A DNA stretch of 64,000 nucleotides from Microcaldota archaeon (GTDB lineage: Archaea; Micrarchaeota; Micrarchaeia; Micrarchaeales; Micrarchaeaceae): NCBI GenBank assembly GCA_021787495.1, contig JAJYLX010000001.1, positions 1 to 64,000 of the forward strand, written 5' to 3'. Made by a program: the position numbers and the translations under genes. Under the pieces are notes generated by a model. That model worked only from the letters and a program-made list of their open reading frames with translations. It searched no databases and was not told the origin of the DNA. Shown piece by piece: positions 2,930 through 53,499 of the stretch. Each line of letters starts with the position of its first letter. Position 1 is the first letter of the stretch.

Positions 2930-2980
2930 AGAATCACTTTACGGACAAAGCCGCCGCGCTACCGAACAAAGGGCGGTTGC

Positions 2981-2990: not shown

Positions 2991-3027
2991 TGGGTGCGGA
3001 ATTGGTTGAGAAACGAGGGACGGTGCC

Positions 3028-3324
3028 ATGGTGGGATTCAAGGAGGCGGTAAGGGCATCCTTCTCCGGCATGCTGAGGAGGAAGGAGCCCGCGGTCAGCC
3101 CGGAGGCCGCGAAGGAGGACGAGAAGAGGAGCATCGAGCTCATGTTCAGGGGCATGGACATCTACAGGGAATTCCACGCCTGGAAGAACGAGGCGTCGGA
3201 GCAGCTCGGCAGGTCCGCGGACCCCGAGGGCTCCAGGAAGCTGATAGAGACCCCGATGAAGCTGTTCGAGATAGACATGGAGGACCTGAGGGACGGCGGG
3301 AAGAAGGACAGGCAGAGGCGCTGA
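3028..3324 (+). CDS. hypothetical small charged protein
   Basis: A 98-residue, highly charged, probably helical protein without membrane segments. It follows a clear TATA box and has the strong GC preference at third codon positions seen in neighbouring genes. It marks the return to GC-rich DNA after the AT-rich island. No family recognised; convergent with the membrane protein at 3335-3652. Confidence 0.6.
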   Translation: MVGFKEAVRASFSGMLRRKEPAVSPEAAKEDEKRSIELMFRGMDIYREFHAWKNEASEQLGRSADPEGSRKLIETPMKLFEIDMEDLRDGGKKDRQRR

Positions 3325-3334
3325 CCAGCCCGCG

Positions 3335-3652
3335 CTATTCCCTGACCAGTATGACCCCTATCACGAACAGCGAGGCGCTGGCAGCGAACGAGGTCACGTT
3401 CAGGTCCAGGATCGTGCCCGGAAGGAACGGGATCGGGAACTGGATGTACGCCGTCGGTATGCAGACCCCGGTTATGTAGTCGTCGCACGCCGCCTCGTAG
3501 AACCTGTGGCCGTTGACGAACTGCGCGGTGTTCCTGAGCAGCGCGCCCATGCAGAACGAAACCAGCAGCAGGGCGAGCCCGAGCATCGCCCTCTTGTCAA
3601 GCCTCCTCCACCGCTTCGGCACGATGGACATAATCCCCCTCTTGGATCCCAT
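3335..3652 (-). CDS. two-helix membrane protein, unknown
   Basis: A 105-residue protein with a basic N-terminus (MGSKRGIMSIVPKRWRR) followed by a transmembrane segment near 24-40, an outside loop holding two Cys residues (EAACDDYITGVCIP), and a second segment near 83-103. A GGAGGTAAT ribosome-binding site precedes the ATG at 3652. The two loop Cys could form a disulfide. Function unknown. Confidence 0.6.
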   Translation of the reverse strand: MGSKRGIMSIVPKRWRRLDKRAMLGLALLLVSFCMGALLRNTAQFVNGHRFYEAACDDYITGVCIPTAYIQFPIPFLPGTILDLNVTSFAASASLFVIGVILVRE

Positions 3653-3741
3653 GGCATTACCTCCATAGCTTGGCCATGCCCAGCCTTATAATCCCATTCC
3701 GGTTGCTTCGGTTGCCGGGTCCGGCGCCGCGCCGAGAGCCG

Positions 3742-3749
3742 TTATATAC
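3742..3749 (+). promoter_or_regulatory. TATA box of PIF1-like helicase gene
   Basis: TTATATAC about 25 bases before the ATG at 3770. This spacing supports a leaderless transcript and argues against the in-frame TTG at 3752. Confidence 0.6.
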
Positions 3750-3769
3750 CCTTGCGCGAAAATACGAGC

Positions 3770-26469: not shown

Positions 26470-26516
26470 CTGCAGTATCTACCCCGGTGCAACAGCCGGG
26501 CGGCTTGAGTGGTCTA

Positions 26517-28013: not shown

Positions 28014-28022
28014 GGTGTGCTC

Positions 28023-29849
28023 ATGGATGGAAACGAAGCGTGCAATGTCTACATAAACGGGAAGCTCCTGGGAATCGTCAAGGACGGGAGGGCGTACGCC
28101 AACGAGATAAGGGCAAACAGGCGCAACGGCATAATCTCCGGGGAGGTAAACGTCACCTACTCGAAAAGGCTCAACGAGGTGCACGTCTTTACCGACCGCG
28201 GGAGGGTGAGGAAGCCCTACATAATAATCGAGAATGGCAAGAGCAGGCTCACCGAAGAACTGAAACAGAAGCTTGAGGCAAAGGAGATAGACTTCAACTA
28301 CCTAGTTCGCAGGGGCATAATCGAGTACCTGGACGCCGAGGAAGAGGAGAACATACTCGCGGCAATCGACGAAGAGCACATAACCCAGAAGACCACGCAT
28401 CTCGAGATAGACCCAGCGTCCAACCTCAGCCTCATAATAAACGCGAGCGTGTTCCCGGAGTACAACACTATCGGGAAGCACTCGCTGATATCAAACTTCA
28501 TGAAGCAGGCGCAGGGGCTCTACACGCTCAACTTCAGGAACAGGTACGACGCCAGGGCGTTCCTGCTCTACTACCCGCAGATGCCGATGGTGACGAGCAC
28601 CACCTACAGGCAGCTCAAGATGTACAGGCACGCCATCGGACAAAACTTCGTGGTGGCGCTCAGCACTTACTACGGCTATAACATGCAGGACGCCGTGGTG
28701 CTGAACCGCTCGGCGGTGGATAGGGGGCTGGCGCGCAGCATCTTCTACCGCTCATACTCGGACGAGGAGAGAAGGTATCCGGGTGGGCAGCAGGACCACT
28801 TCAAGATCCCCGCGCCTACTTCGGACGGCTACAAGGGGGAGCATGCCTACACCAAGCTGAGCGATGACGGGATAATCGAGCCCGAGATGAACATAGAAGA
28901 GGGCAGCGTGCTCATCGGAAAGGTTTCCCCGCCCAGGTTCCTCGAAGAGCAGACAAGCTTCGGGATAGCGGAGGAGAAGAGCAGGGACAACTCCGTGCTG
29001 CTCAGGTCGGGCGAGGAGGGGGTTGTGGACAGCATCGCCATCAGCGAGACGACCGGCGCGACGAAGATAGTCAAGGTCAGGGTGCGCAGCGTCAAGATCC
29101 CAGAGTACGGGGACAAGTTTGCCAGCAGGCAGGCGCAGAAGGGGGTCGTCGGCCTCATACTAAGGAACGAGGACATGCCGTTCACCGCGTCGGGCATAGT
29201 GCCGGACCTGCTGCTGAACCCGCACAGCCTTCCCGGAAGGATGACGTTCGGCCACATGCTTGAGATGATGGTCGGCAAGGCGGCCTCGCTGGACGGCAAC
29301 ACTGCCGACGGGACGCCCTTCTCGACCAACGGCACCGAGGTCATAGACAGCTACGGCGCGATACTCGAAAAGAACGGCTTTGACAAGTTCGGGGACGAGT
29401 GGCTGTATGATGGAAGGACGGGGAAGAAGTTCGCGGCGAAGGTCTTCACCGGCGTCGTATATTACAACAAACTGCATCAGATGGTCAGCCTCAAGCTCCA
29501 GGTCAGGGGAAGGGGGCCGATGCAGATACTCACACACCAGCCGACGGAGGGTAAGCCCAGGAAGGGTGGCCTCAGGTTCGGAGAGATGGAACGCGATGCG
29601 CTCGTCGGCCACGGCGCCTCGCTGCTGCTCAAGGAGAGGATGCTCGACCAGAGCGACAAGACTACAATATGGGTCTGCAAGGACTGCGGGGACATCGGCT
29701 ACCACGACAACATAAAGAACGTGCCGGTATGCATGACGTGCGGCGGCAACAACCTGAAGGAGCTCGAGATCAGCTACGGGTTCAAGGTGCTGCTCGACGA
29801 GATAAAGTCGCTGCACATACTGCCGAGGATACGCCTGAAGAGCGAATGA
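28023..29849 (+). CDS. rpoB1: RNA polymerase subunit B'
   Basis: A 608-residue C-terminal half of the second-largest subunit. It holds the hybrid-binding and catalytic parts: YYGYNMQDAVVLNRS, VRSVKIPEYGDKFASRQAQKG, GRGPMQILTHQPTEG, and a C-terminal Zn motif (WVCKDCGDIGYH, VCMTCGG). The start at 28023 follows GAGGTG. It begins ten bases after the end of B''. Confidence 0.96.
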   Translation: MDGNEACNVYINGKLLGIVKDGRAYANEIRANRRNGIISGEVNVTYSKRLNEVHVFTDRGRVRKPYIIIENGKSRLTEELKQKLEAKEIDFNYLVRRGIIEYLDAEEEENILAAIDEEHITQKTTHLEIDPASNLSLIINASVFPEYNTIGKHSLISNFMKQAQGLYTLNFRNRYDARAFLLYYPQMPMVTSTTYRQLKMYRHAIGQNFVVALSTYYGYNMQDAVVLNRSAVDRGLARSIFYRSYSDEERRYPGGQQDHFKIPAPTSDGYKGEHAYTKLSDDGIIEPEMNIEEGSVLIGKVSPPRFLEEQTSFGIAEEKSRDNSVLLRSGEEGVVDSIAISETTGATKIVKVRVRSVKIPEYGDKFASRQAQKGVVGLILRNEDMPFTASGIVPDLLLNPHSLPGRMTFGHMLEMMVGKAASLDGNTADGTPFSTNGTEVIDSYGAILEKNGFDKFGDEWLYDGRTGKKFAAKVFTGVVYYNKLHQMVSLKLQVRGRGPMQILTHQPTEGKPRKGGLRFGEMERDALVGHGASLLLKERMLDQSDKTTIWVCKDCGDIGYHDNIKNVPVCMTCGGNNLKELEISYGFKVLLDEIKSLHILPRIRLKSE

Positions 29850-34980: not shown

Positions 34981-37900
34981 ATGGGCGGCCCGCGCGGCAA
35001 ACATATTAAGCTGCTACTTCTCCTTGCCGGCATGCTCATCTTTTCGTCGCTGATTGCGATGCCTCGTGCGCAGGTTGTGGACAGGAGCGGCAGCACATCG
35101 ACCGCGCAGTGCATAGGGATAGGCGGCGCCGACTTCCTCGGCGGCCTCCTCGGAAAGATAGTCTCATTCATCTCGAACTTCGACATCACCAAGATAGGCC
35201 AGAGCATAAGCAACTTCATAAGCAGCATATCGGTACAGGATGCCCTGAACGCCATAGTCAACGGGTTACAGGACCTGGTAAACAACATACCCAACTACCT
35301 CGCCCAGCTGGAGGGCGTAGTCAGCAACGCGGTGCTCACGGCGATCAACAATATAATAGCCTCCCTGCCAGGGGCGCTGATCGACCTCGCCAGCAAGGTG
35401 CTCACGTCGATAACGGACATAGGCAACGAGCTGGGGAGCCTCATGTCGCAGCTCGCGCAAGCCACCGTGGTCATGACGCAGTCCGCCGCCAGCGCGCTCA
35501 GCACCCTCGCTAACCAGCTTTCCACGGTGATATCGAGCATACAGATAGACCTTCCCAGCATCGACCTGTCGTCCATCTTCGGCACCTCGAACGCGATAAG
35601 CGAGCAGTCCCTGGCGATAGCCACGAATGCCAATGCGCTGGTCGCGAACGCGATCGCCTGCGCGAACAAACTCGGCAGCGCAGAGGCGAGGACGCTGGCC
35701 ACCTCAGCCGCGGCGGTCGAGGACAACGCGATGTGGGGCTATACATACACGTCCGACATCGCGTACCGCACCGTATTGATAACCCAGACAATCGCCAAGC
35801 TCAGCGCCGCGGTCACAAACGTCTCGTCGCTGATGAACCAGATGACGCTGGTGCAGGTGGGCCAGCAGAGCGGCACCCTGTGCCTGAACATAGGCCTGGC
35901 CAATGGCAACATCCAGACGATCTCCAGGCTGCTCGGCCTCCTCAACACTAACATGGCATACATAAAGAACGACATAGCCGCGGTCGACGGGCCGTCCGGC
36001 AAGATAATGGCCGTTGAGACATCGATTGCCGCCCTGCCGGTGCAGACCGCAACGGTGTATACGCAGTGCAGCGGGTACAACGTCAGGTATCTCGAGCAGC
36101 AGCTCGTCAAGGTCTACAACAGCTACGGCGGCCTGCCTTATGCGAGCTACAACAACCAGTTGAGCGCCGCGTACGTGGCTGTGAACAACGAGGCCACGCA
36201 GACGAGCAAGGACATCAACAGCCTGATAAAGTACACCGACTTCACGGCCGTTGAGGCCAACGTCAACCTCCTGGGGAGCGAGCAGTTATCCCCGAGCTAC
36301 GTCGCCTCCGCGCAGTCCACCGTCGAGGCCGCGATGGGCCCGGCCAACGACGTGATAAACAGCATCAACTCCAACCTCAGCACGCTGAACAGCTACATAA
36401 GCATAATAGGCAGCAACATGGTCAAGGCCCAGGCGATAGTGGCCAACGTCGTCAAGGACATAAACACCGTGAACGGCCCGCTTACTACGATCAGGAAGAC
36501 GGTGGGCGGCAACGTTGGCAGCTTTACGTGCAGCGGGGTCTCTTTCGCTACAGGAGGCTCTACTGCCTGCCAGACGTATGCGGCGATGGTCACCCAGATA
36601 GCCGGGGACATAACCGAGATAATAGGCGACGTCAACCAGATAAACGCCTCCACGGCCGACATAGTGAGGAGCGTGACCATGGTCGAGGGGAGCACCGTTT
36701 ACCAGACCGTAGGCAGCAGCGTCTCGAGCGCGATGGCAGCGCAGTGGGCCAGCATAGCGGGCGACGTGGGCGCCGGCATAGCCGACGGTGTGCAACAGGG
36801 CGTCTCAAGTATAAGCCAGAGCACATGGAGCAGCATGGTCTCGGGCAACAAGGCTGCCGAGGCAGCGGTGGTCAGCGCCATAACCTCGAACGTCCAGAAT
36901 GCGGTAGAGAACAACCTCCTGTCGGATCAGCAGGTCGCCGCCGCGGCCACATCGATAACTGACGCGATACATGCCGCGGTCACCGACCAGAACCTGTGGT
37001 ACAGCGTGCAGGACCAGGTGCAGTCGTCCGTCCAGAATGCGATACCGTCGGCGGTATGGGGCTACGTCCAGATCTACGCGCCATCTGCGGTACAGTCGGC
37101 CATCGAAGGCAGCATAGCGGCAGGGGTCACGGACAAGGCGAGCGTCTCTTCCGCGATATCCAGCGCGATAACGGCCAGCCTCGCCCCCGGATTCTCAGTC
37201 CAGGCGGGCAACCCTTACCTTCCACCTGGCTCGACGCTCCTCACCGTGCGCAGCAACATAGACCTCGCGATAGTCAAGAGCATACAGGCGATGCTGTCCA
37301 GCGGCGACTGGAGCGCGGTCAACGGCGTGGCCGCCATACAGGCTTCGCTGTACAGCGTGCAGAACGACTTCCGCGCGATAGACCAGAACATGACGCTCAT
37401 ACACAACGCGCTGCTGCCAGACGGCACGCTGACCTGCAGCGTGCAGGCCAAGCTCGGAAGGGATATAGCGAACGTCACCGCTAAGCTCAACGACCTCTCG
37501 CAGGCCCCGAACAGGATATACGACGCGGTCAACGGCGCGGTGCTGCTCGTGCAGACCGTCGTCGACAACATAGAGAACGACGTGCAGACGATTGAGTCGG
37601 CGTTCAACGACATAGTCGCGTCTATACAGGACATAGGAAATGCGATAAACAACGCTGCCTCCGGATCCACCGCCGTAGCTCCGATACCGAAGATAGGCGG
37701 CTGCCTCGGCGTCGCGGTCGACATACGCTCTACGAACTATCCAGGCGCGGGCAACGGCTGCGTGGTCAACATCGCATTGCAGACGAACCAGCCCAAGACG
37801 ACCGTAGCTCTGGAGAGCAGCATAAACCAGGGCGTGTGGGGCACCGTCTCCGGGGCCGAATCCAGCATACAGCAGAGCGTCGAGGGCAGCGTGGTCTCTT

Positions 37901-40900
37901 CGATAATGGGCAGCATAGAGGGCAGCGTGCTGGTGAGCATCAACAACGACATCTCGCTCAACCTCTACAGCGGCCTCCGGGCCGGTTTCACGTCGCAGGC
38001 CTGGAGCAGCATATGGTCCAGCGTCACCTCGGGCGTCTCGTCTGGCGTTAACTCCGGAGCCAACGCCGTGCCGTCCGCCACGTGGTCGCAGTTCGCCAGC
38101 GGCAACCCCACGTTGCAGCAGCAGGCCGAGGCCGCAATCTATGCGTCGATGGACCAGAGCATAGCCGCGAGCGTCCAGCAGAGCCTGCAGGGAGGCGTGA
38201 CCCAGAGCGCGATCACCGGCATATATGCGGGCATAAGCACCAACGTCGACAATGCGGTGTTCAGCAACGTGCAGCAGAGCCTCACCACGAGCATACAAAC
38301 CGCCATACAGGAGGGCGTGTGGACCGGGATAAAGTCGACCGTCGACTCCGCCATCAGCTCGGTGCTGGGCAGCAGCCTGCAAGGCGACACGGCCTCGGAA
38401 AGCCAAGTAAAGAGCGCGCTTATCTCGTCGATAAACGCCGCGATACAGAACAGCGTCAATGCGGGCCTGCAGGACCAGGTGCAATCGAGCATACAGACGA
38501 AGCTGCAGGTCTCGATGGCGACCACCGTCTGGAACAACATACGCGGGCCGATATACACGAAGGTCGTCAACACATATGAGGGCACGATGACGAGCCAGGT
38601 CTGGGGCAACGTATGGAACGGCGTCCAGCAGAGCCTGGTCTCGAGCACGGCGAGCGTCGTGGGCAGCGCCGGCACGTCAATTCTCACCTCCGGGACCAGC
38701 GGGGTGGCGTCGAGCATATCGTCGGCCGCCGAGCAGCAGGTCAAGAACAGCGTCCAGGCCGCCATTACCGGGAGCGTCACGACCTCGTTCAGCCAGGGCG
38801 TCGCGCAGGCGATAGCCCCATCTATCGCGCCGGCGCTGTGGAGCATAATAAAGGACGGCATCAGCCCGAGCGTGCAGGCGAACTTCTCCAGCAGCATGGC
38901 GTCTAGCCTCTGGGCCAGCGTGGAGGAGAAGGTCGTGGAGGGGATCGGCACTGCGCTGCTCAACAGCTTCTCGCCGCAGATAGGCGGCATAACGAAGTGC
39001 CTGCTAAGCATCGGGACCGTCTCGATAGGCGGCATACTGGAGAACGGTTCCTCGCAACAACAGCAGCCGCAGCAGCTGCTTGCGGGGATAGGCGCCAACC
39101 AGTCCGCATTCAACTATGCAGTGCCGCAGAACATGGCGGGTGCGGCGCTACAGCCGCTCCCCGGCACCGATACGATAAGCAGCCTGGTCAACAAGTATGG
39201 CGGCGGCCTCCTCCAGGGCGTCGCCAGCCTGATTGGCACGGCCACGCCCCCCACATCCGTAATACAGCAGTACAACAACAACAACGCGGGGAGCCTGATA
39301 ACCTGCCCGAACACGCCTTCCAACACCATAATGGACTACTTCGTCAGCGACCCGCTCTCCAATACGGATAGGTACATAGCTGGGGACAGGTGCCTCGCCG
39401 TGGCGACCACGCTGCGCACGCTCGTCTCGATGACGGTCACGTCGAGCTACGGGACGCAGGTAATGCTGGGAGACCAGCGCACCGTCGCGCAGATAATCTT
39501 CGACACGGTCAAGCAGGTCATAAAGAACCCGCTCAAGCTCGCGAACCCGATAATCACGGTCAATCTTGTGCGCAACAGCCCCGCGACAATAACCGGCATA
39601 CACTTCAGCGTCGGCTTGCCGCCGACCTCGCAGCTGAGGGTCGGGCCCCTCGTCATACCGATGCCCCCCGGCGTGAAGCAGGGGATACAGATAGCCGAGA
39701 CGGTGGGCCTCGGCACATCGGCCATAACCTCACTCCAGAACCTCGGCTATTCCGGCCAGGCGGCCCTCCAGGGCGGCAGCCAGTACGAGATAGCAGGCTC
39801 GTATAACACCAACACGCTCATCTTCGGGTCGCCAACCCCCGCGGTGCAGCGCGGCCTCTGGGCCTGGACCGCGCAGTACGTGGACCTCTCTTACTATGAG
39901 ACGCATCCGGAAGCGCTGAAGAACCTCGAGGCGAAGGCGGTCGGGCAGAAGGCCAACTTCGTCAGCGCTGCCTTTAGCACCAACCTGGTTCAGGATGCGA
40001 AGGTCATCGCCGCAGGGCCCTTGGCCCTGAGCTACCAGGTCTTCCTCTGCAACTACCAGTACACCTACGGCTTCGACGTGAAGGTAACGTCGATAGCGCC
40101 TACTAACATACCAATACCTAATGCCATAAGCTGGACCCCCAACGGCAAGGCCCTCAATGTTCCGCAGGACTTCAACAACTCGTTCGCCGTACAGTATAGG
40201 CAGCCGAACGTAATACAGTGGGCCAATGCGCCGATATTCCCGTACTTCCTGTACAACACGAGCATGCCCGCGTCGTACAGCAACCTGAACGGCCAGGTCA
40301 GCTACCTGAACGAGTCGTACGACCTGTACAGCCCGCACAACTTCCTGGCGCCCAACACGTTCCTCGACCCGTTCCCGATCGGCGCCGGGTCGGCATTCCT
40401 GGCATACATGAACGGCAACCTCGTCGAGTTCCCGTACAACGCGGTGTCTCTCTCGTCGACCGACTACAACGCGTTCAACAGCATAAGCCCGCTGCAGATG
40501 TTCATAGCCTCCGCCTACGGCAACGGGACAGCGGCCATATCCAACTACCAGGCCGCGACCGGCGGCCATATGGCGATCAATTGGCGCGACATCGGGCTAG
40601 GTTTCAGTGTGCCGACCGGGCTGCCGTGCGCCTATGCGGACGTGCTGGACGGCACCTGCACGCCTGGCGCGGTGCAGGTGGGCCAGTTGCTCGGCGTCCA
40701 GATACCCAACCCCGTCTTCATGACCGAGGCGCCCAACGGTGATGTCTACGTGCTTAACTACACCTACAGCTCCGGTTCGTTCGGCTTCAACCCGTCCACC
40801 AGAGCGAACCTCTACGTGCTGAAGTTCACGCCGTTCGGCCAGTTCAACCCGCCGAATCCGTTCCCGCCGCAGATAGTGGCAGGGAACACGAAGCTCAAGT

Positions 40901-43900
40901 TCGACGGCATAACCGGCCAGAAGCCGACCGACCTCGGCCAGGTCGGTGCCCAGCTCACGGCATCGTGGAGTGGCGGCTATCCACCCTACACCGTGACGTG
41001 GTACACCGGAACGCAGAGCAACTGCGGAAACCCAAACGGGCAGCCGATCGTGGCGCAGGTGGACTCAAACATAGCCGACTACAGCGACACGATAGGCGTG
41101 ACCCCCGGAAACGTGCCTGTTGCGCCGTCGCTCTTCCAGTGGCAGAAGGTCGACTATGGCATCAGCGGCTCCCAGGAGAATCCGAACGTAGGGTACAGCT
41201 ACTGCGCCAAGGTGACGGACGGCTTCGGCACCGTCGTGTGGTCATCGGCAAATGTGATCGTGCCAGTGTTCCCGTCGATGGGCCAGCTCACCGCGTATGT
41301 GGTCGGCCAGCAGCCCGTCACCGACCCGAACATCGGCAGCGGCAACTCCGTGACGATAACGCTCGGCCAGCCTATCGACGTCAACCTGCAGTGGTCCGGA
41401 GGGGCGCCCCTCTATGACGTCTACGGATACATATACCCGGCGCCGGGCAACACGAACCTCGTGCCTACGGTCAACGAGCCCGGCTACGGGACGGCGTCCC
41501 AACAGGGCGTGTCCGTGCCGCAGAACTGCTACCAGTTCTACAGCGGCGACAAGAGCGGTGCCTCCAAATTCGGCATACCTGTTTCCGGGTCTTGGGGGTC
41601 AACGCTGGTGGCGAACGTCAAGATATACGCCCACCTGGCGCAGATAGAGACGACGTCGCTGTCAACTGACCTGCGGATACAGTTCCCGGTCCTCGGCGGC
41701 CTGCCCGGCGAATACTATCTCTGCTTCTCGGTCATCGACGCCGCTGGCGCAACGTCTTACACCCCGACCATATCTCCAGCATCCAACCTGCCGCAGCCGT
41801 ACACCCAGCTCTTCCTCAACTCGCAGGGCGGGGGCGGCGCGACGCTGCCGATACCAATCATAAGCTCATCGCAGGGCGTTACGGTTGGGGTAGACAACAA
41901 CAATGGCGGCTGGTGCACGAGTTGCGGCGCCCGCGACATAGTCGCCGTCCTCCCAGATCCGAGCGGCAGCAAGCAGGTTACGCTCAAGGCCAACCTGAAC
42001 GTCCAGAACAGCCAGCTTGTCTACAACTACGACTGGTACAGCTCAGACACCTCCGAGGGCTGCCTCCAGGCAGCTTCTACCGGCTTAGGCGTGCTGATCT
42101 CGACCAGCCAGTCCGTTACCGTTTCGCCCTCACAGAACACGTGGTACTGTGTGACCGTGACGGCTCCAGGCTCGTCGGCAAGCACCCCGCTCTCATCTAC
42201 GTCCGTGCCTGGCGAGGTGCTTGTAGGGGGTTCCGTGAGCAGCGTCGCGCTAAGCGTCGTGCCGTCGTCGAGCCAGACCCTCGGCCAGGCGCTCAGCAGC
42301 ACCAACCTCAACCTCGAGTTGGACTGGACCGGTGCGAGCAATGCGAGGATCCTGCTGTACAATGACGCGTCCGAATCCGCCCAGTGCGCTTCTGGGACGA
42401 GCGTCGCGTTCACCTCGCAGCCCAACGCGCAGTTCAGCATACCTGGGGAGTATTCGGACATACTCACCATAACGCCCTCAGGCAGCCAGGAGTATCTCTG
42501 TGCCACGGTCGAGGACCCGACCAGCCTAATGACGGCCAATTCGAACTTCGTGAGCATACCGCCCATGGTTACGAACGTGCAGCTGTCGCAGCCGCCGTCC
42601 TCCGCGCTGATCACGCCTCCACCGGGCAATACCCTCGTCTCGGTGGGATGGGTGGGCGGCACGAGCCCGTACACAATTTCGCTGTTCGGGTCAACGGCGC
42701 AGATACCACCGCAGTCGTGCGACACCAGCTCGCCAATCTATGCCTATGAGGTCGGTTCTACCCCACCCAGCCCAGTCTCGTACGTCACCGCGTCCGGGAC
42801 GTCGACAATCGTCGCGGTCCCAATCGTGCAGGGCGAGAGCGTGTGCGCCGAGGTGACCGACTATACAGGATTCTTCTCGACATCAACATACATGACGCTA
42901 TCATCCGGCGCGGCAGCGGCGGGCCTTCCGATACAGTCCGTGCACACGTCCGGCGCGGCAGGCGTGCAGGATACCGTCGCCACGGGAGTGCAGCAAACCA
43001 ATTCCACTAACATGGCCGCCTCCATGTCGTTCGGGAAGCCGCTGCCCTTCCTTTGCATCAAGGGCGGCATATTCGGCCTCCTGAAGTGCTCGGGGAGCAG
43101 CCCGCAGAGCGCGGCGCAGGAGGCCTTGCAGCAATGGATAAACGAGTGGAAGCAGTACTGGAACGACATGCTGGCGGAGCAGTCCGGAGACCTCTATCTG
43201 GTCGGGGACGTGCGCCTCGCGCAGCAGGAGAACAGCTGGTTCGGAATATTCCAGAACTTCAAGTCATCTGCATCCTTCAACTTCCTGCCCACGGCTGTCG
43301 CGGCCGACTACTCCGGGGACATCTTCATACTCGGTTCGGCAAGCTGCGGCACCAACACCGCGGCAGGGCAGTCGCCGTCCGGCCTGCGCTTCGGGATAAT
43401 ATACGCAAACGGGGTCTCGACTTCCATACCGCTCAGCGGGGTCAACACCAACGGTTGCCGCGGCGCCAATATCCAGGCATCGAGCGAGTTCGCGGTGTCG
43501 CCAGGAGGCCAGATCGGCTATCTGGCCGACCCTATACTGCCGGGCAATGTCATGGTCTTCAACTTGCAGAGCGGCGCGTTCCTCGGGAACATAAGCCTGT
43601 CGTATTCGACCCAGGACTACAAGCTCGACATATCGAAGTACCTGGCGAATGGCGGCCCGTACGGCGTGCAGGACCTCGCGCAGCAGTATCAGGGCGCGAT
43701 ACCCACGAACGACGTGAACGGAAACCACCAGCCACTGTACATAACGGACGAGGACGGCACGCTCTACGTGCTCGACCGCTGGTCCTTCGACGCGGGAGGT
43801 TATGGCCCGTCTTCCATGCTCATGCTGCGCGCGTTCAGCGCAAACGGCGTAGAGGTGAATGTCGACCCGGCGAGCACCAACGACGTTACCGTGCTGACGA

Positions 43901-46900
43901 ACAACGCGGTATTCGCATCCACGCGTGCTGGGGTCAGCTATCCGCCGTACGGATGGCCCCTCTCGTTCAACATCTCCACTCCAGGATCCGCGCAGTACAC
44001 GCCCGACCAGAGCAGCGCCGACAAGGGCATGCACAACACAGCCTGCATAGCAGGGTGCGACGAGACGCCCACCGTATTCATCCAAGGGCAGAAGCAGGGC
44101 ATCAGCCTCTACACGAACACCAACTACCTGCCGCTCGGCCCGTGGATACAGGCCCACTACTCGTGCGGCTTCCTCGCGACGCTCGGAGGGTTCCTGAACT
44201 CGGTGATAGGCCAGGCGCTCGGCCAGCCTTACTACGCATCATGCCAGGGCTCCGCGGTAGGCACCTCGATGAGCTTCTCGTCCAACTTTGAGAACATTGC
44301 TTACCTCACGGCGAACGTGAGCATGGGCAACGTGAACGGCCAGGACAGGTCGTACAGCGAACTGCTCGCGTTCCACATAGGGACCGTGAACTATACCAAC
44401 CCGTCACTCATGGCGAACGCGAGCTACATATGCTACCTAGCGCCGCACGCCTCCACTCCAGTGGGGTCGACGTTCTACGACGACCTGTCGAAGACCGCCA
44501 CGCCGTGCTCCATCGTGAAGCCTGGCACGCAGGGCTCGGACGTCATACAGGCGATACAGGGGCCGCTGCTCGGCGCGCCGGACGCGTTCGGCTACGTGGA
44601 GAACCAGGGCTCTCCGGAGCTTTCGCTGACGCTGCCGAACGTCGCGTCGCAGATCGAGCCGGTCGTCCAGCAGAGCGGCGGCGGCTTCCAGTGCACGGGA
44701 TCAGCATGCGCGACCGCCAACCCTTACAGCGGCCAGCCGGCATCCGTGGCGATAACCCCGCAGTACGTGCCGCAGGAGTACCTGCAAAGCAAGATATCGG
44801 GCAGCGTGCTCGTGCCGTACGTCGTCAGCTACACGGAGCAGCAGACTTACTCGCCGCAGCAGGAGCAGGGGACCGCCACCGTGATACCGATGCTCACGAG
44901 CGCGGACATGCAGGGCACCACGGCGAGCTGCCCGAATTACGACTTCAGCAAGCTGGCGTGCCAGGGCAGCGGATGCCAGTTCACGGTCTACGGATTCAGC
45001 CTAGTGCCCGTGCAGCCCAGCACGGCGAATGACCTGATAAACGGCGGCCCGACGTATCTCGTGTACAACAACACCAACTTCAACCAGTACTACATGCCCA
45101 ACGTGTCGGACGCGGGCACGATACTGCCCCCCAACTTGGACTACAGGGTGCTGACCGACAGGCTGCTCGGCGAGATCTACGTCAACCAGAGCGTGATGCC
45201 GAACCCGGCCGCCGGAATAACCATCGCAGGGTCTATCGAGCTCAGCAAGCTCTCTTCGATGCTCGGCAGCCTCAAACCCGTGGCATACCAGCTGCCCATA
45301 ATGATTGCGGTCAACCAGACGCACATCTACGACTACATACCGCAGTATTACTATTCGGTCGAGACCAACCCGAACCAGCTGGGCATGAACAAGCAGTCGC
45401 TCGCCACGCCCGCGTACATGACTTACACGCTTGTGCCCAATGGCTACACAGGGTACAGCAACGCGAACATCGTGACGGCCATAATAAAGGGCGGCGCATC
45501 GTACATACCAAACACGGTGTCGAAATACACGGGCCCGGCCGCGCTGCTGAAAGTCGTCGCACCGTTCTACTTCAGCGTGGCATACCTGACGGGCATAGCG
45601 TCTTCTGCAACGCTGCCCGGATACTCGGCGCTCGTTGCGAGCGCGGCAGGCGGCGCCACTGTGGTCGACGCCGCATATGCGGCGTTCGGCGTGCCGGCGC
45701 AGACCCTTCTCTGCGGCGGATCGCAGTCCGCCCTGTCCGGCATGCTCAGCAGCATGGGGCTGTCATCGCTCGCAGGCCTGACGAAGACATCATTCTGCAA
45801 CGACCAGTTCACGTACGCCGACCTCTCGGGGCAGGGCCCGGCCAGCCTGCAGATACTCGACACGTACAAGACTCTGACCCACCAGTACGAGGCGAGGCTC
45901 AACTGGTCGCAGAACAACAACGTGCTCGGCTACAACAGGCTCATCTACACGTTCGTCGACGTGTTCAACAACACGATATCGGCGCCTATAGACGTCGACC
46001 TCGCCAACATCACGGCGATAACGCTTTCTTCGAACACGGTCGTCAACCCGAACAACTACAACGACACCTCGGTCACGGTAACAGGCACCGCCGGGTACTA
46101 CCCGCAGGGCACGGGCGGCCAGTTCATACCGCTGCCCGAAGGCTCGCCGGTATACCTCTACTACGACCAGAACCTCAATTACTACTCGAGCAACAGCATG
46201 CTGAGCCCGGTCGCCGCCAGCCCGTCGGAGTTCGGGAACTACATGAAGTACGTGCAGCTCTGCGCCTTCGGCAACCAGGACGGCTGCGCCCTCGCCAACC
46301 CGCTCAACGCGACACAGCTCGGCGAGGTCTTCCAGGGGTTCGGCTACACGTATGCCACCACACCGACGTACGCCAGCCTGTCCGGCACGACCGCGGGATG
46401 CCCGAGCCCGCCATCAGGGCTGCTGGAAGCAACGTCCCTCTCGTCGCTCTACGAGTGCAACATATATGGCAGCTACGGGCTGCCGGCGTCGTGCCCTGAC
46501 CTGCTGAACTCAGCCACGCTCAAGCAGCAGGCATCCAGCTGCACCACGCAGATGCTGCAGGACGCCATCACGCGCCAGACCCCGAGCTGCGTGCTCGCGC
46601 AGGACATCAGCCTGTGCAGCAGGTATGTGTCCAGCGCCGCGCAGCTCACCTCGGCCGGCAACCCGCGCCTGCCGTTCTGCGTGCCCGACTTCATCAACGG
46701 CACCGGCACGTTCACGACGCAGATAGGCCTGCTGCCGCCAAGCGGCAACATAGCGCAGCAGGCGGCCTCCGTGGCCATCAACAGCGGCACCGTGCAGACC
46801 GCGAAGGACGGGACGTTCTCGTACACCACGAACGTCTGCGGCGCCGGCGTCGGTACGATCACCGCGCAGTACTACGGCGCGCCGTTCCCGCAGCCTGGGA

Positions 46901-47133
46901 ACGTCGTCCAGACGGTGCTGGCCAACTCGCTCATTCCGGGCGTGATAAGCACGCCGACGAAGACATATTCAGAGTACTCTTACACGTTTGCTCCCGCCTC
47001 GGCGACCACATCATTCACGCTCGCGAGCTATCAGCTGAGCTTCGGCGGCGTTGACGCCGCAATCATCGTGACGATAATAGCTGCCGCCGCGCTGGCGATA
47101 TACGCGCATGGCAGGAGGGCGAAGGGGAGATGA
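34981..47133 (+). CDS. giant secreted membrane-anchored surface protein
   Basis: One uninterrupted frame of 4050 residues. It has an N-terminal signal peptide (basic GKHIK, hydrophobic core about 10-26, AMPRA cleavage-like site) and a C-terminal membrane anchor (about 4022-4042) with a basic tail (GRRAKGR), so nearly all of it lies outside. Residues about 50-1340 are Ser/Ala/Ile/Val/Gln-rich helical or solenoid repeats. Residues about 1990-2640 hold Ig-like beta domains with W-x-GG motifs (Trp 1995, 2138, 2449 and 2557). Strands of the GD-hydrophobic-Y/F type near 1921, 2736, 2780 and 2926 suggest propeller-like parts. Many Cys and sequons. No enzyme motif recognised. S-layer, adhesin or cell-cell contact protein are possibilities. 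Confidence 0.9.
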   Translation: MGGPRGKHIKLLLLLAGMLIFSSLIAMPRAQVVDRSGSTSTAQCIGIGGADFLGGLLGKIVSFISNFDITKIGQSISNFISSISVQDALNAIVNGLQDLVNNIPNYLAQLEGVVSNAVLTAINNIIASLPGALIDLASKVLTSITDIGNELGSLMSQLAQATVVMTQSAASALSTLANQLSTVISSIQIDLPSIDLSSIFGTSNAISEQSLAIATNANALVANAIACANKLGSAEARTLATSAAAVEDNAMWGYTYTSDIAYRTVLITQTIAKLSAAVTNVSSLMNQMTLVQVGQQSGTLCLNIGLANGNIQTISRLLGLLNTNMAYIKNDIAAVDGPSGKIMAVETSIAALPVQTATVYTQCSGYNVRYLEQQLVKVYNSYGGLPYASYNNQLSAAYVAVNNEATQTSKDINSLIKYTDFTAVEANVNLLGSEQLSPSYVASAQSTVEAAMGPANDVINSINSNLSTLNSYISIIGSNMVKAQAIVANVVKDINTVNGPLTTIRKTVGGNVGSFTCSGVSFATGGSTACQTYAAMVTQIAGDITEIIGDVNQINASTADIVRSVTMVEGSTVYQTVGSSVSSAMAAQWASIAGDVGAGIADGVQQGVSSISQSTWSSMVSGNKAAEAAVVSAITSNVQNAVENNLLSDQQVAAAATSITDAIHAAVTDQNLWYSVQDQVQSSVQNAIPSAVWGYVQIYAPSAVQSAIEGSIAAGVTDKASVSSAISSAITASLAPGFSVQAGNPYLPPGSTLLTVRSNIDLAIVKSIQAMLSSGDWSAVNGVAAIQASLYSVQNDFRAIDQNMTLIHNALLPDGTLTCSVQAKLGRDIANVTAKLNDLSQAPNRIYDAVNGAVLLVQTVVDNIENDVQTIESAFNDIVASIQDIGNAINNAASGSTAVAPIPKIGGCLGVAVDIRSTNYPGAGNGCVVNIALQTNQPKTTVALESSINQGVWGTVSGAESSIQQSVEGSVVSSIMGSIEGSVLVSINNDISLNLYSGLRAGFTSQAWSSIWSSVTSGVSSGVNSGANAVPSATWSQFASGNPTLQQQAEAAIYASMDQSIAASVQQSLQGGVTQSAITGIYAGISTNVDNAVFSNVQQSLTTSIQTAIQEGVWTGIKSTVDSAISSVLGSSLQGDTASESQVKSALISSINAAIQNSVNAGLQDQVQSSIQTKLQVSMATTVWNNIRGPIYTKVVNTYEGTMTSQVWGNVWNGVQQSLVSSTASVVGSAGTSILTSGTSGVASSISSAAEQQVKNSVQAAITGSVTTSFSQGVAQAIAPSIAPALWSIIKDGISPSVQANFSSSMASSLWASVEEKVVEGIGTALLNSFSPQIGGITKCLLSIGTVSIGGILENGSSQQQQPQQLLAGIGANQSAFNYAVPQNMAGAALQPLPGTDTISSLVNKYGGGLLQGVASLIGTATPPTSVIQQYNNNNAGSLITCPNTPSNTIMDYFVSDPLSNTDRYIAGDRCLAVATTLRTLVSMTVTSSYGTQVMLGDQRTVAQIIFDTVKQVIKNPLKLANPIITVNLVRNSPATITGIHFSVGLPPTSQLRVGPLVIPMPPGVKQGIQIAETVGLGTSAITSLQNLGYSGQAALQGGSQYEIAGSYNTNTLIFGSPTPAVQRGLWAWTAQYVDLSYYETHPEALKNLEAKAVGQKANFVSAAFSTNLVQDAKVIAAGPLALSYQVFLCNYQYTYGFDVKVTSIAPTNIPIPNAISWTPNGKALNVPQDFNNSFAVQYRQPNVIQWANAPIFPYFLYNTSMPASYSNLNGQVSYLNESYDLYSPHNFLAPNTFLDPFPIGAGSAFLAYMNGNLVEFPYNAVSLSSTDYNAFNSISPLQMFIASAYGNGTAAISNYQAATGGHMAINWRDIGLGFSVPTGLPCAYADVLDGTCTPGAVQVGQLLGVQIPNPVFMTEAPNGDVYVLNYTYSSGSFGFNPSTRANLYVLKFTPFGQFNPPNPFPPQIVAGNTKLKFDGITGQKPTDLGQVGAQLTASWSGGYPPYTVTWYTGTQSNCGNPNGQPIVAQVDSNIADYSDTIGVTPGNVPVAPSLFQWQKVDYGISGSQENPNVGYSYCAKVTDGFGTVVWSSANVIVPVFPSMGQLTAYVVGQQPVTDPNIGSGNSVTITLGQPIDVNLQWSGGAPLYDVYGYIYPAPGNTNLVPTVNEPGYGTASQQGVSVPQNCYQFYSGDKSGASKFGIPVSGSWGSTLVANVKIYAHLAQIETTSLSTDLRIQFPVLGGLPGEYYLCFSVIDAAGATSYTPTISPASNLPQPYTQLFLNSQGGGGATLPIPIISSSQGVTVGVDNNNGGWCTSCGARDIVAVLPDPSGSKQVTLKANLNVQNSQLVYNYDWYSSDTSEGCLQAASTGLGVLISTSQSVTVSPSQNTWYCVTVTAPGSSASTPLSSTSVPGEVLVGGSVSSVALSVVPSSSQTLGQALSSTNLNLELDWTGASNARILLYNDASESAQCASGTSVAFTSQPNAQFSIPGEYSDILTITPSGSQEYLCATVEDPTSLMTANSNFVSIPPMVTNVQLSQPPSSALITPPPGNTLVSVGWVGGTSPYTISLFGSTAQIPPQSCDTSSPIYAYEVGSTPPSPVSYVTASGTSTIVAVPIVQGESVCAEVTDYTGFFSTSTYMTLSSGAAAAGLPIQSVHTSGAAGVQDTVATGVQQTNSTNMAASMSFGKPLPFLCIKGGIFGLLKCSGSSPQSAAQEALQQWINEWKQYWNDMLAEQSGDLYLVGDVRLAQQENSWFGIFQNFKSSASFNFLPTAVAADYSGDIFILGSASCGTNTAAGQSPSGLRFGIIYANGVSTSIPLSGVNTNGCRGANIQASSEFAVSPGGQIGYLADPILPGNVMVFNLQSGAFLGNISLSYSTQDYKLDISKYLANGGPYGVQDLAQQYQGAIPTNDVNGNHQPLYITDEDGTLYVLDRWSFDAGGYGPSSMLMLRAFSANGVEVNVDPASTNDVTVLTNNAVFASTRAGVSYPPYGWPLSFNISTPGSAQYTPDQSSADKGMHNTACIAGCDETPTVFIQGQKQGISLYTNTNYLPLGPWIQAHYSCGFLATLGGFLNSVIGQALGQPYYASCQGSAVGTSMSFSSNFENIAYLTANVSMGNVNGQDRSYSELLAFHIGTVNYTNPSLMANASYICYLAPHASTPVGSTFYDDLSKTATPCSIVKPGTQGSDVIQAIQGPLLGAPDAFGYVENQGSPELSLTLPNVASQIEPVVQQSGGGFQCTGSACATANPYSGQPASVAITPQYVPQEYLQSKISGSVLVPYVVSYTEQQTYSPQQEQGTATVIPMLTSADMQGTTASCPNYDFSKLACQGSGCQFTVYGFSLVPVQPSTANDLINGGPTYLVYNNTNFNQYYMPNVSDAGTILPPNLDYRVLTDRLLGEIYVNQSVMPNPAAGITIAGSIELSKLSSMLGSLKPVAYQLPIMIAVNQTHIYDYIPQYYYSVETNPNQLGMNKQSLATPAYMTYTLVPNGYTGYSNANIVTAIIKGGASYIPNTVSKYTGPAALLKVVAPFYFSVAYLTGIASSATLPGYSALVASAAGGATVVDAAYAAFGVPAQTLLCGGSQSALSGMLSSMGLSSLAGLTKTSFCNDQFTYADLSGQGPASLQILDTYKTLTHQYEARLNWSQNNNVLGYNRLIYTFVDVFNNTISAPIDVDLANITAITLSSNTVVNPNNYNDTSVTVTGTAGYYPQGTGGQFIPLPEGSPVYLYYDQNLNYYSSNSMLSPVAASPSEFGNYMKYVQLCAFGNQDGCALANPLNATQLGEVFQGFGYTYATTPTYASLSGTTAGCPSPPSGLLEATSLSSLYECNIYGSYGLPASCPDLLNSATLKQQASSCTTQMLQDAITRQTPSCVLAQDISLCSRYVSSAAQLTSAGNPRLPFCVPDFINGTGTFTTQIGLLPPSGNIAQQAASVAINSGTVQTAKDGTFSYTTNVCGAGVGTITAQYYGAPFPQPGNVVQTVLANSLIPGVISTPTKTYSEYSYTFAPASATTSFTLASYQLSFGGVDAAIIVTIIAAAALAIYAHGRRAKGR
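36700..38960 (+). repeat. degenerate amphipathic repeats in giant protein
   Basis: In residues about 574-1327 the pattern Q-S-hydrophobic-x-x-A/G-hydrophobic recurs with aromatic steps such as SAVWGYVQ, GVWGTVSG, GVWTGIKS, TTVWNNIR, SQVWGNVWNG and PALWSIIKDG. Blocks of about 40-60 residues alternate these with SIEGS/SVEGS or SVQQSL runs. Repeats are diverged at DNA level, so they are old. They suggest a long rod or solenoid. Confidence 0.6.
40950..42700 (+). repeat. Ig-like domain repeats in giant protein
   Basis: At least four diverged copies of a strand motif: LTASWSGGYPPYTVTWY, VNLQWSGGAPLYDVYGY, LELDWTGASNARILLY and VSVGWVGGTSPYTISLF, with spacings of 143, 311 and 108 residues. The 311-residue gap probably hides one or two more copies. 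The pattern fits PKD/Ig-like surface domains. Confidence 0.6.
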
Positions 47134-48434
47134 CAATGGAAGGCAAAAGGATAATGCTGGTGGGCCTGCTCGCCATGGTCGGGCTAGTCGTGATTATCGC
47201 CTTCTTCCTAATGGGAAGGGGAGGGCCGTACGTGGCACCGAACACGACAACGACATCAGCCACGGGCAGCACCACGATATACGTGCCGACAACGCTGCCG
47301 TACAATTACGTCCAACCGCAGAATGCCACGACGACCATACCCGCGGACGCGTCGAGCGCGTGGGTCAGGCTCAACGCCGACCTGAACCTGTTCAGGAACG
47401 TCACGCCGATAACGCTGGAATACAATGCGACAGGGCCGTACCCTCTCTTCCTGAACGGCAGCCAGACGACGGTGTACAGGCAGGGTGGCTCGTACTCGTT
47501 CGACACCGTGCGCGTGATCCAGGGCTTGGAGGTGCCGGTCAGGGTCTACGGCGGCTTCGGCACGGTCCCGATATGCTCCAACCTGCCGCTGGCGCTCTTC
47601 AATTCCACGCTCTCGTGCACCACGGGAGCCGTCAGCTTCCCGGACCCCGTCAGCCTGCTCACCCTGAACGCCAGCGCCTATTCAAACGTAACGTACAATG
47701 GCCAGAGCAGCTTCGACGGGGACGCGTGCGACAGCTTCACGGCCAGCGTCTCGTTCCAGGAGGCCCTGAGGCTGGACAATATCTCGTCGTCCGGCCCGTT
47801 CTCGGCTGATATGTGCATAAACACGCAGTACGGCTACCCCGACTACTACAGGCTGAACGAGCCCTCGAAGCAGGTCACGTATGCGTTCAACGGCACGTTC
47901 CTCGGGATACAGGACACCGCCGTGCTGCAGCCTCCGTCGAACTTCTCGATCCAGTCGGCTGCGTGCAGCCCGAATTCGATAGGTGTTACCTTCACGCCGT
48001 TCAGCAACATGACCGACCCGACGTTCACCCTCGCCGTGTCGCAGGTCAACAGCACCGCAATGTCACTACAGACCGAGCTAGGCTACGAGCAGCTGCTCCT
48101 GACGCACAGGCTCATGACCAACGCGACGCTGTTCAACGAGGCGATCAACAACGACTCGTTCATCAGCCAGTACTTCCAACAGCAGCTGAGCAACATAACG
48201 TATGACGGCTACAACCTCTGGGCCGCGTACCTGATGTTCAACAGCACCAACGGCACGACGGTGAGCCTGTACGAGAACGCGTCGATGAACTTCACTCAGG
48301 CCGGGCAGTATGCGGCCATGAGGACGTACACCATCGCGCTGCCGATCAACAACATGTACCCGCTCGGCGGGTTCACCCTGTGCGCTGACAACTCCTGCCA
48401 GGAGGTCTACAATTGCACGTTCCAGTCGGACTGA
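47130..48434 (+). CDS. glycoprotein-like anchored surface protein
   Basis: A 434-residue protein with an N-terminal membrane anchor (about 9-28), a Thr-rich linker (NTTTTSATGSTTIYVPTT) and a large outside domain rich in sequons (many NXT/NXS) and in paired Cys. The start ATG overlaps the stop of the giant gene (ATGA), so the two are translated together and probably work together. Type II topology is complementary to the C-terminal anchor of the giant protein. Function unknown; assembly partner or co-receptor is inference. Confidence 0.82.
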   Translation: MTMEGKRIMLVGLLAMVGLVVIIAFFLMGRGGPYVAPNTTTTSATGSTTIYVPTTLPYNYVQPQNATTTIPADASSAWVRLNADLNLFRNVTPITLEYNATGPYPLFLNGSQTTVYRQGGSYSFDTVRVIQGLEVPVRVYGGFGTVPICSNLPLALFNSTLSCTTGAVSFPDPVSLLTLNASAYSNVTYNGQSSFDGDACDSFTASVSFQEALRLDNISSSGPFSADMCINTQYGYPDYYRLNEPSKQVTYAFNGTFLGIQDTAVLQPPSNFSIQSAACSPNSIGVTFTPFSNMTDPTFTLAVSQVNSTAMSLQTELGYEQLLLTHRLMTNATLFNEAINNDSFISQYFQQQLSNITYDGYNLWAAYLMFNSTNGTTVSLYENASMNFTQAGQYAAMRTYTIALPINNMYPLGGFTLCADNSCQEVYNCTFQSD

Positions 48435-48500
48435 CGCGCCGGCATGCCGCAGCAGGACTGCAGTTTATTTATAGGTAGGAGCAGAATAACCAGTGATGCA

Positions 48501-49790
48501 ATGCTGCCGCTCGCGCAGACCGCGATAGTGCTGAGCTTCAACGCGATCAACACACTGATACCCATAATCGTCATAGTCATACTCATAGGGGCGGCGGCAG
48601 GGCTGATGCGCGGTCTCGACATCTTCAACATCTTCGGCTTCGGCGCCCTGATGGGCCTCACCTCCGGCGCGGCAAGGGGGAGGGCCAAGGGCCTTGCGGG
48701 CGGTAAGCACGTCGGCAAGACCCCCGGGAAGGTGCAGAGGCAGTCGATGAAAAAGAAGATATTCGGGAAAGGGGGTTCGATCGGGCTCAAGGGCGGGAAG
48801 GCGCTGAACTTCAGCAAGGACGACCCCCACGGCGCCGCCGCTCGCGCCGCGATGCGCGCCACGAGAGACAGTGCGACGAAATCCGCAGGCGAAATATTCA
48901 AGTCCGGCGAGGACGCCCTCAAGAACAGTGGCGTGATGGCGCCGGCGTCGGCCGTGCCGCTGGAGAGCGCGCTCAAGGGCTACAACAGAGAGCAGAGGCT
49001 CAGGGGGAAACGCGCACAGAAGCAGGCATCATACGACGCACTGGTAAGCACCGGCGCGGGCGAGGCGAAATCGAGGAAGCTGGGAGGGCAGATATCCAGA
49101 CTCGACAACAGGATTACTGCACTGTACGGCAAGCGCATACTGGGCCGCAAGAAAGCCAGAGAGGTGATATATGCGTCCCAGATGGCGACGTCGCTCGGCC
49201 TGGTCAGCGGCAAGGTGACCGAGGGGCGCGCGACCACCAGCGCGTGGGAACTGGAGGCCTCGAACAGGGCCAAGCGGCACGGCGAGGCGCTCGGCGAGAT
49301 GGGGAGCAGGAAGGCCGAGTACGCAACTGCGCGTTCCGGAGGCGACAAGTCGAGGATCAAGGCGGCCGCATCCGCCTACCGCGCGTCGAAGCAAAGGGCC
49401 AAAGCCGCTTTTGGCGATTATAGGAAGGCCCAGGAGGGCCTTAAAGCAGCAACCGAAGGATATAGAGCGAATGATAAATACGTCAGGACGCTGGCTAAGC
49501 ACGTATCCGCGCTCGAGGTGTCAACCGGCGAGTCAGGGGCGGCGGTATTGCAGCTCTCGAAGACGGCTGCAGACCGCAACAATTACGGAAAGATTGTTGA
49601 CACAATCAAGGCGACGTATTTCGGTCGCAAGCGCGAGTTCCAGACAGAGTTTTCCATGCCGTCTCCGCCTTCTATTCCACCTCTTTCCGAGCATTCATGG
49701 CGCGAGACGGATGAGCAGAATGCAAGGATATCGGGAGCGATCTCCCGCCTTGGCGGCGCCCTGCCGCCCAACACACCGGCCAGTACATGA
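48501..49790 (+). CDS. basic membrane-anchored coiled-coil protein
   Basis: A 429-residue protein. One strong membrane segment near 12-32 (LIPIIVIVILIGAAAGL) and a weaker one after it are followed by a long, very basic Ala/Lys/Arg/Gly-rich part (GRAKGLAGGKHVGKTPGK) and helical, coiled-coil-like stretches to about 350, then a Pro/Ser-rich tail. The cytoplasmic location of the basic part follows the positive-inside rule. The ATG at 48501 is chosen because GTTTATTTATAGG at 48461-48473 would start transcription there; an earlier frame start is upstream of that point. It may tether DNA, RNA or the envelope; no family recognised. Confidence 0.72.
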   Translation: MLPLAQTAIVLSFNAINTLIPIIVIVILIGAAAGLMRGLDIFNIFGFGALMGLTSGAARGRAKGLAGGKHVGKTPGKVQRQSMKKKIFGKGGSIGLKGGKALNFSKDDPHGAAARAAMRATRDSATKSAGEIFKSGEDALKNSGVMAPASAVPLESALKGYNREQRLRGKRAQKQASYDALVSTGAGEAKSRKLGGQISRLDNRITALYGKRILGRKKAREVIYASQMATSLGLVSGKVTEGRATTSAWELEASNRAKRHGEALGEMGSRKAEYATARSGGDKSRIKAAASAYRASKQRAKAAFGDYRKAQEGLKAATEGYRANDKYVRTLAKHVSALEVSTGESGAAVLQLSKTAADRNNYGKIVDTIKATYFGRKREFQTEFSMPSPPSIPPLSEHSWRETDEQNARISGAISRLGGALPPNTPAST

Positions 49791-53403: not shown

Positions 53404-53499
53404 CCCGTCGTAGCTCAATGGTAGAGCGGCCGGCTGTAGTTTGGTGCTGCCAACGCGGCAGATACCGGCAGGTTGGGTGTTCAACTCACCCCGACGGGA
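53404..53499 (+). tRNA. tRNA-Tyr (GTA) with 24-base intron
   Basis: Acceptor CCCGTCG/CGACGGG with the C1-G72 pair of archaeal tRNA-Tyr, D stem GCTC/GAGC, anticodon stem GCCGG/CCGGC, anticodon GTA, T stem GGGTG/CACCC. The intron is at the canonical site 37/38, positions 53440-53463. The splice structure fits: central helix CTGT (53434-53437) with GCAG (53458-53461), 5' bulge AG|T and 3' bulge AT|A. CCA is not encoded. Confidence 0.95.

Follow-up and report, generated by a model that had tools for sequence, protein, structure and literature searches.

What a protein of more than 4,000 residues does in an archaeal genome of otherwise small genes, and with which partners, is the question raised by a locus of a Microcaldota archaeon (Micrarchaeota, family Micrarchaeaceae). 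We analysed positions 1 to 64,000 of contig JAJYLX010000001.1 (assembly GCA_021787495.1), a stretch of 64,000 nucleotides hereafter called the window. It contains a forward-strand open reading frame (ORF) of 4,050 codons at 34981–47133, which encodes a giant surface protein with homologs in related genomes. The start of a second gene (gene 2, 47130–48434, forward strand) overlaps the stop codon of the giant by 4 nt, and a third (gene 3, ORF 48444–49790, forward strand) lies next downstream. A preliminary description of the DNA saw in these genes a three-gene cluster, possibly a host-contact or cell-envelope machine of an episymbiotic archaeon. Gene order in relatives leads us to suggest that the cluster is probably the surface-contact module of a chromosomal machine of Micrarchaeota that resembles a type IV secretion system (T4SS) of the VirB/Ced kind.

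The giant protein and gene 3 are a conserved pair

Homologs of the giant were found in 48 of 60 relatives and were not detected in the other 12, while gene 3 had homologs in 53 of the 60 and in 113 of the 147 genomes of the order. The relatives are mostly draft metagenome-assembled genomes (MAGs), so that these counts are lower bounds, and their genes were called mechanically as the longest ORFs. The two genes co-occur: 48 genomes contained both, five only gene 3, none only the giant and seven neither (Fisher p = 2 × 10−6, with phylogeny ignored). Among the 72 loci with enough downstream sequence, gene 3 lay at most 300 nt from the giant in 41 and about 2 kb away in three, and it was fused to the giant in frame in one. 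In genus g7 the giant and gene 3 form a single polypeptide (3,365 residues in G008; also in G033 and G214), in which the ectodomain of the giant continues into the helix and tail of gene 3. Since the fusion is found in three g7 genomes, an assembly error is unlikely. The C-terminus of the giant and the N-terminus of gene 3 are also similar to each other (hhalign probability 76.6, E-value 2 × 10−5; reversed control probability 10, E-value 3 × 10−3).

Gene 2 encodes a 434-residue protein with an N-terminal anchor (residues 8–26 by hydropathy) and an ectodomain rich in sequons (20, or 4.6 per 100 residues), much as the preliminary description had it. Its homologs were found in only four of the 60 genomes, and the one in the sister species G002 lies elsewhere in the genome, which led us to reject the conserved trio. 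In both sister species the giant stands next to gene 3 without gene 2 between them, and the gene 3 frame of one (G001) is broken. Gene 2 matched no curated family, its weak Pfam matches falling below the cut-off. The conserved unit is the pair of giant and gene 3, and gene 2 is a local, lineage-specific addition. The prospect that the trio would turn out not to be conserved, also raised in the preliminary description, thus came true by half.

The gene 3 ORF has 448 codons, with one membrane segment by hydropathy (residues 37–55; 48552–48608, forward strand), and is basic, with 73 Lys and Arg versus 36 Asp and Glu; both properties had been noted before. Comparison with homologs places its true start probably at Met20, position 48501. 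The N-terminal consensus of the family is LSFxAIxxLIPIIIIxILIAAAAGLTRGxDxFALFGxGTLMG. The tails behind it are divergent and rich in Lys and Arg (13–24%), roughly 200–900 residues long, and from the distribution of charge the tail is predicted to be cytoplasmic. Neither a DnaJ domain nor its HPD motif was found with Pfam in gene 3 of the window. Four homologs (L099, L152, L167 and L094) have a DnaJ domain that exceeds the Pfam cut-off, and the reading frames of the homologs in G011 and G043 contain one too. C-terminal J-domains on membrane-anchored, basic gene 3 homologs occur in several lineages, across both families of the order. Gene 3 had no match in Pfam or NCBIfam, and a function was not drawn from its PDB matches, which were coils of unrelated proteins.

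Beyond the 60 relatives, a hidden Markov model (HMM) of the giant core matched 111 of 276 genomes of the phylum, some of them through weak propeller-repeat matches only. A profile search, being more sensitive, added weak giant matches in a few of the genomes. Searching named genomes gave 75 loci in records labelled Micrarchaeota, with some MAGs labelled Marsarchaeota that are probably mislabelled. They include the cultured Ca. Micrarchaeum A_DKE and ARM-1, both of which have the giant and gene 3.

Other genes recur near the giant. Of loci L097–L171, 27 have a gene for a class-III pilin-like surface protein (about 500 residues) upstream of and close to the giant, mostly on the other strand, and ksgA lies near the giant in 30. 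Two of the class-III pilin-like neighbours were tested for DUF2341, and one scored above the cut-off and the other just below it. In genus g4 (for example L176 of G005 and L177 of G226), where the giant was not found, gene 3 stands beside ksgA-like and metallo-hydrolase-like genes, which are frequent neighbours of the giant elsewhere.

A secretion-like operon and its positional links to the cluster

We read a second conserved gene set in loci L187, L199, L189–L193, L205–L231 and L235. Its order is pilins, M0, P1 to P6, T1, T2, ATPase, zinc ribbon, winged helix-turn-helix (wHTH) and X8. Complete copies encode all six P proteins and, in many cases, the pilins. M0 has six transmembrane (TM) segments, the polytopic proteins P1–P6 have five to nine each, and T1 and T2 have two. 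X8 combines an N-terminal membrane part with a large soluble part and was found in 192 of 216 genomes of the phylum. The genome of the window has its own copy of the operon (G000:C1, about 121–138 kb; loci L187 and L199). In ARM-1 the operon is split, with the ATPase half at another place in the genome.

The pilins are proteins of about 130 residues with a signal and two helices, and 10 of 17 members matched TrbC/VirB2, the best at 1 × 10−7. The pilin of the window's own genome scored 25.6 bits (1.4 × 10−5), just under the curated cut-off of 27.9. Three near-identical VirB2-like pilin genes stand in tandem in that genome (G000:C1, about 121.2–122.6 kb; L187:9186–10556), one of them with a Gly-rich C-terminal extension. 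The ATPase (501–505 residues) matched HerA (3 × 10−14), AAA_10 (1 × 10−11) and TraG (3 × 10−8) in Pfam and the VirB4-like PDB entry 4ag5 (E-value 5.7 × 10−8). It was matched in all 41 genomes searched, including that of the window (G000:C1:132616–134109), with a weak match in G006. Because it joins VirB2-like pilins and a VirB4-type ATPase with multiple channel-like proteins, the machine appears T4SS-like, with the P proteins as unproven VirB6 counterparts. A side observation concerns G044, whose operon has an insertion that encodes a laminin-G-bearing class-III pilin-like protein, another possible adhesin (L193:13905–14831).

We next looked at gene 3 in those genomes where it is not beside the giant. 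In 11 genomes it was within the operon or adjoined it: between P6 and T1 in six (G041, G042, G044, G045, G046 and G052), directly before P1 in four (ARM-1 (G026), G195, G050 and G048), and antisense between M0 and P1 in G021. If positions are taken as random, the chance of such placement is roughly 6 × 10−8 for eight of 14 family f2 genomes and 3 × 10−4 for four of eight genera. The gene 2 homolog of G002 stands between P6 and T1, exactly where gene 3 is located in six other genomes.

Homologs of the giant are themselves encoded in the operon in family f15, another family of the class. There, giants of about 2.7–3.5 thousand residues with a C-terminal anchor directly follow X8 in G146, G147, G149 and G150. 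A split giant follows X8 in G152, and in G148 the giant is present on a contig that does not show X8. These giants are homologous to the family of the window through the C-terminal region including the anchor (hhalign probability 98.8, E-value 1 × 10−16; reversed control 0.3). In G147 the whole order is M0, pilins, P genes, T1, T2, ATPase, zinc ribbon, wHTH, X8, giant and a Lys/Arg-rich TM protein. Genes of the cluster exchange position between the giant locus and the operon.

Behind the giant, each of G146–G150 encodes a TM protein whose tail is rich in Lys and Arg. The one at L183:12563–18271 and its equivalents in G148–G150, directly after the giant, have 1,590–1,920 residues or more, some being cut by contig or sequence ends. 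They share N-terminal hydrophobic segments and the Lys/Arg-rich tail, and the G147 protein has an SMC-like coil.

The links could alternatively reflect the neighbourhood effects of envelope genes, with the giant and gene 3 acting as a two-part attachment complex unrelated to the machine. Such a stand-alone adhesin, anchored in the cytoplasm, would agree with the finding that the pair mostly sits together, away from the operon, with the class-III pilin-like protein (DUF2341 match) near the giant in 27 loci, and with the presence of the operon in genomes that lack the giant. However, all three genes of the cluster turn up in the operon, each in at least one lineage. Coincidence explains this poorly, and we consider this alternative unlikely.

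Several observations weigh against joining the cluster to a T4SS-like machine. The ATPase is about equally close to HerA helicases and to VirB4, the P6 alignment had no Pfam match, and several T4SS hallmarks are missing or were not sought (no search was made for a relaxase, coupling protein, VirB11 or VirB8/10). The link between gene 2 and the operon comes from one genome, G002. The f15 neighbour of the giant resembles gene 3 in architecture, but no sequence homology between the two was detectable, and such a relation is not supported (hhalign probability 2.7). No giant followed X8 in the class-level loci examined outside f15, nor in the f15 member G145; the arrangement is found only in that family and was rejected as phylum-wide. 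Giant-less genomes such as G004, G005 and G014 have the operon, which can therefore do without the giant. The operon of the window's genome lies on a different contig from the cluster, and the link therefore rests on position in relatives. Lastly, a complex of the giant, gene 3 and the machine is a prediction from gene data.

Architecture of the giant protein and its surroundings

The giant frame has zero internal stop codons and takes 19% of the window, in keeping with the first impression of a single frame filling about a fifth of it. Hydropathy supports the signal peptide and C-terminal anchor predicted earlier, as only two membrane segments are present: the hydrophobic core of the signal peptide (residues 9–27; 35005–35061, forward strand) and the anchor (residues 4024–4042; 47050–47106, forward strand), which homolog C-termini also support. 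A short basic tail follows the anchor, and the protein ends 8 residues beyond it. Across homologs, the consensus IGxYxLSFGxI precedes the terminal helix and basic residues follow it.

The first 1,440 or so residues are a genus-level extension. Within it lies a rod with the repeat xxx[IVL] (residues 941–1361; 37801–39063, forward strand), with a hydrophobic residue at every fourth position. Its spectral power is 22.3 versus a maximum of 8.6 in 100 shuffles, which bears out the rod-like repeats of the preliminary description. The giants of G001 and G048 and a G012 paralog have the same periodicity, strongest in G048 as (S[QS]S[LI])n. As these giants belong to other genera too, rods of this kind recur. 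Exact four-residue rods, neither heptad nor hendecad, span hundreds of residues in the window (37801–39063), in L096 of G048 (residues 301–1081) and in L090 (residues 201–681). Typical giants have 1,600–2,400 residues, and complete members range from about 1,560 to 4,050. The giant of the window is unusually long because of its genus-specific, rod-bearing extension.

All further modules lie on the forward strand. A conserved N-terminal beta-rich module, named ITCP (residues 1418–2095; 39232–41265), is supported by alignments A2 and A5 and by AlphaFold2. The model of this module from homolog L097 (predicted local distance difference test score, pLDDT, 75.6) had zero PDB fold matches at an E-value of at most 0.001, and we dropped the attempt to read a function from its fold. 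Extra Ig-like (PKD-like) repeats, recognised by sequence inspection, occupy residues of about 2110–2690 (41308–43050), outside the conserved core. The core of the family is the C-terminal 1.1–1.35 thousand residues (2696–4049 in the window by HMM). Its first part (residues 2696 to about 3410; 43066–45210) is a YVTN/YncE-like propeller with beta-rich sequence. Its second part (residues of about 3600–4020; 45778–47040) contains the LGYNRL/FNNTI beta module, a Cys-rich part and a membrane-proximal Ig-like domain; by hhalign, it is the portion shared with the giants in the f15 operon. An AlphaFold2 model of the L097 core (pLDDT 69.7) begins with a propeller-like part and continues through a long stretch of beta structure to an Ig-like domain near the membrane and a helix at the end. 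Foldseek matched it to YncE propellers (probability 1.00) and Ig folds (probability up to 0.97). The Ig-like and propeller-like parts proposed earlier are thus supported by the core of a homolog.

Against Pfam and NCBIfam, the giant gave no family match above chance. Pfam likewise found no AAA domain in the giant or gene 3 and no laminin-G domain in the giant. A Phlebovirus G2 match in the A_DKE homolog (E-value 0.0085, below the Pfam cut-off) was taken as chance. A viral origin was also rejected: viral contigs gave no match, and Foldseek matches in a viral library were generic Ig or propeller folds.

The preliminary description had named a match to a well-known surface-layer (S-layer) family as evidence against its reading. 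The giant shows no match to such a family. What it has is a short match of the propeller to the YVTN-propeller surface-layer protein PDB 1l0q (E-value 7.7 × 10−7), alike in the propeller repeat over about 55 residues, with the rest of the giant unrelated. An envelope scaffold, in which the giant is the structural subunit of a micrarchaeal surface layer held by the C-terminal helix, would accord with this match and with a family that is order-wide and C-terminally anchored. The S-layer of ARM-1 is six-fold, with its subunit organisation unresolved (PMC11329633), and an S-layer protein has been reported for A_DKE (Gfrerer 2022, as cited in PMC8975820). However, lengths from about 1,560 to 4,050 residues and lineage-specific rods are unlike a lattice subunit, the giant was not detected in 12 of 60 relatives, and family f15 encodes it in the secretion operon. 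The S-layer protein of A_DKE is also said to be a different, smaller protein. We regard the scaffold as highly improbable.

The genes around the cluster are ordinary archaeal ones: those for RNA polymerase subunits precede it, and those for an OB-fold protein and a Cdc48-like ATPase follow. Two genes (508 and 610 residues; 26487–29849) encode RNA polymerase subunit B, an arrangement known in archaea. A 96-nt tRNA at 53404–53499, to which ARAGORN assigns an odd anticodon, probably has an intron or a long variable arm.

Known systems, proposed mechanism and implications

The closest counterparts in outline are the nanohaloarchaeal giants, in which a VirB4/TraG-like ATPase follows the C-terminal anchor and for which a role in type IV secretion into hosts has been proposed (PMC10266531), a correction of the earlier SPEARE reading (Hamm 2019, PMC6642349). 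We compared descriptions and features rather than sequences. Both groups are DPANN proteins of thousands of residues with a Sec signal, Ig-like and propeller parts, and a C-terminal TM anchor with a cytoplasmic portion, and for both a tie to type IV secretion and host contact is proposed. The giant of the window shares the signal peptide, the Ig-like and propeller ectodomain and the C-terminal anchor. SPEARE proteins, however, carry a fused VirB4/TraG-like ATPase and a coiled coil, with a second VirB4-like gene adjoining. Here the ATPase is a separate, unlinked gene encoded with VirB2-like pilins and six polytopic proteins, and the place of the cytoplasmic part is taken by a basic or J-domain protein of its own, which is joined to the giant only in g7. 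Nor did Pfam detect in the giant the laminin-G adhesion domains that mark SPEARE proteins. Lacking the fused ATPase, the giant is not a SPEARE member, though alike in outline.

The machine shares with the Ced and Ted systems (PMC9905601) a chromosomal location, a VirB4/HerA-like ATPase, a polytopic protein as the putative channel and small two-helix pilin-like proteins. It differs in having six polytopic proteins, for which homology to CedA is unproven, the 6-TM M0, X8, the wHTH and zinc-ribbon proteins and a giant anchored surface protein. Rickettsiales T4SSs with duplicated VirB6 also have several duplicated polytopic channel-type genes (PMC2653234; PMC7648143), and one Anaplasma VirB6 paralog exceeds 4,000 residues owing to a C-terminal extension. 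Those systems are bacterial and diderm and their giant is an extended VirB6, in contrast to the single-anchor surface protein described here.

The kinship with Ced and Ted raises the alternative that the machine imports or exchanges DNA, with the giant as a mating-contact adhesin that has no special role in exploiting a host. This is a special case of the secretion-like machine with another substrate, and the two estimates overlap. A VirB4/HerA ATPase and VirB2-like pilins are common in kind to both known systems (PMC9905601), and the basic tail of gene 3 may bind nucleic acid. Yet there are six polytopic proteins versus one CedA, the likeness is in the kind of parts, and DNA is a putative substrate. 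We consider DNA exchange rather unlikely, if a little less so than the stand-alone adhesin.

For the surface-contact module that we favour, we propose the following mechanism. The giant would be exported by Sec and retained by its C-terminal helix, and its propeller and Ig body and long N-terminal rod would reach outward to touch another cell. Gene 3 would sit beside the anchor of the giant through its similar helix, and its basic, coiled or J-domain cytoplasmic tail could couple the giant to the membrane complex, the ATPase or a substrate. Gene 2 may be an optional surface component. The host-contact or envelope machine of the preliminary description is thus supported in outline by the gene order that ties the cluster to a T4SS-like machine in relatives; a physical complex, transport and host contact are what the genes would predict. 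The tubes that join host and symbiont in ARM-1 co-culture have been described as coming from the host (PMC11329633), which gives no clear reason to equate them with the present machine.

The operon, conserved and previously uncharacterised, is a finding in its own right. Our literature search, which left out most subscription journals and all bioRxiv preprints, found no account of a machine of this kind from Micrarchaeota. The means by which DPANN archaea adhere to their hosts and trade material with them are an open question; cryo-tomography of Micrarchaeota co-cultures shows contacts, and few candidate proteins are at hand. We offer a named conserved gene set: the giant, gene 3, the pilins, P1–P6, T1, T2, the ATPase and X8. 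The two cultured Micrarchaeota, A_DKE and ARM-1, both have the giant and gene 3 (in A_DKE the giant lies within 393–417 kb of NZ_CP060530.1), and in ARM-1 we could read the greater part of the operon, so that the proposal is testable there. More tentatively, and with some doubt on our part, Micrarchaeota may possess a phylum-wide chromosomal T4SS-like machine of distinct architecture that links them to other archaeal cells. In it the channel proteins would be multiplied, an anchored giant would form the surface arm, and a basic or J-domain protein would serve as a separate anchor; DPANN archaea would then have tied giants to VirB4-type machines more than once. For the source archaeon, which is tiny and probably host-dependent, the machine could be a route of contact and material exchange with other cells.

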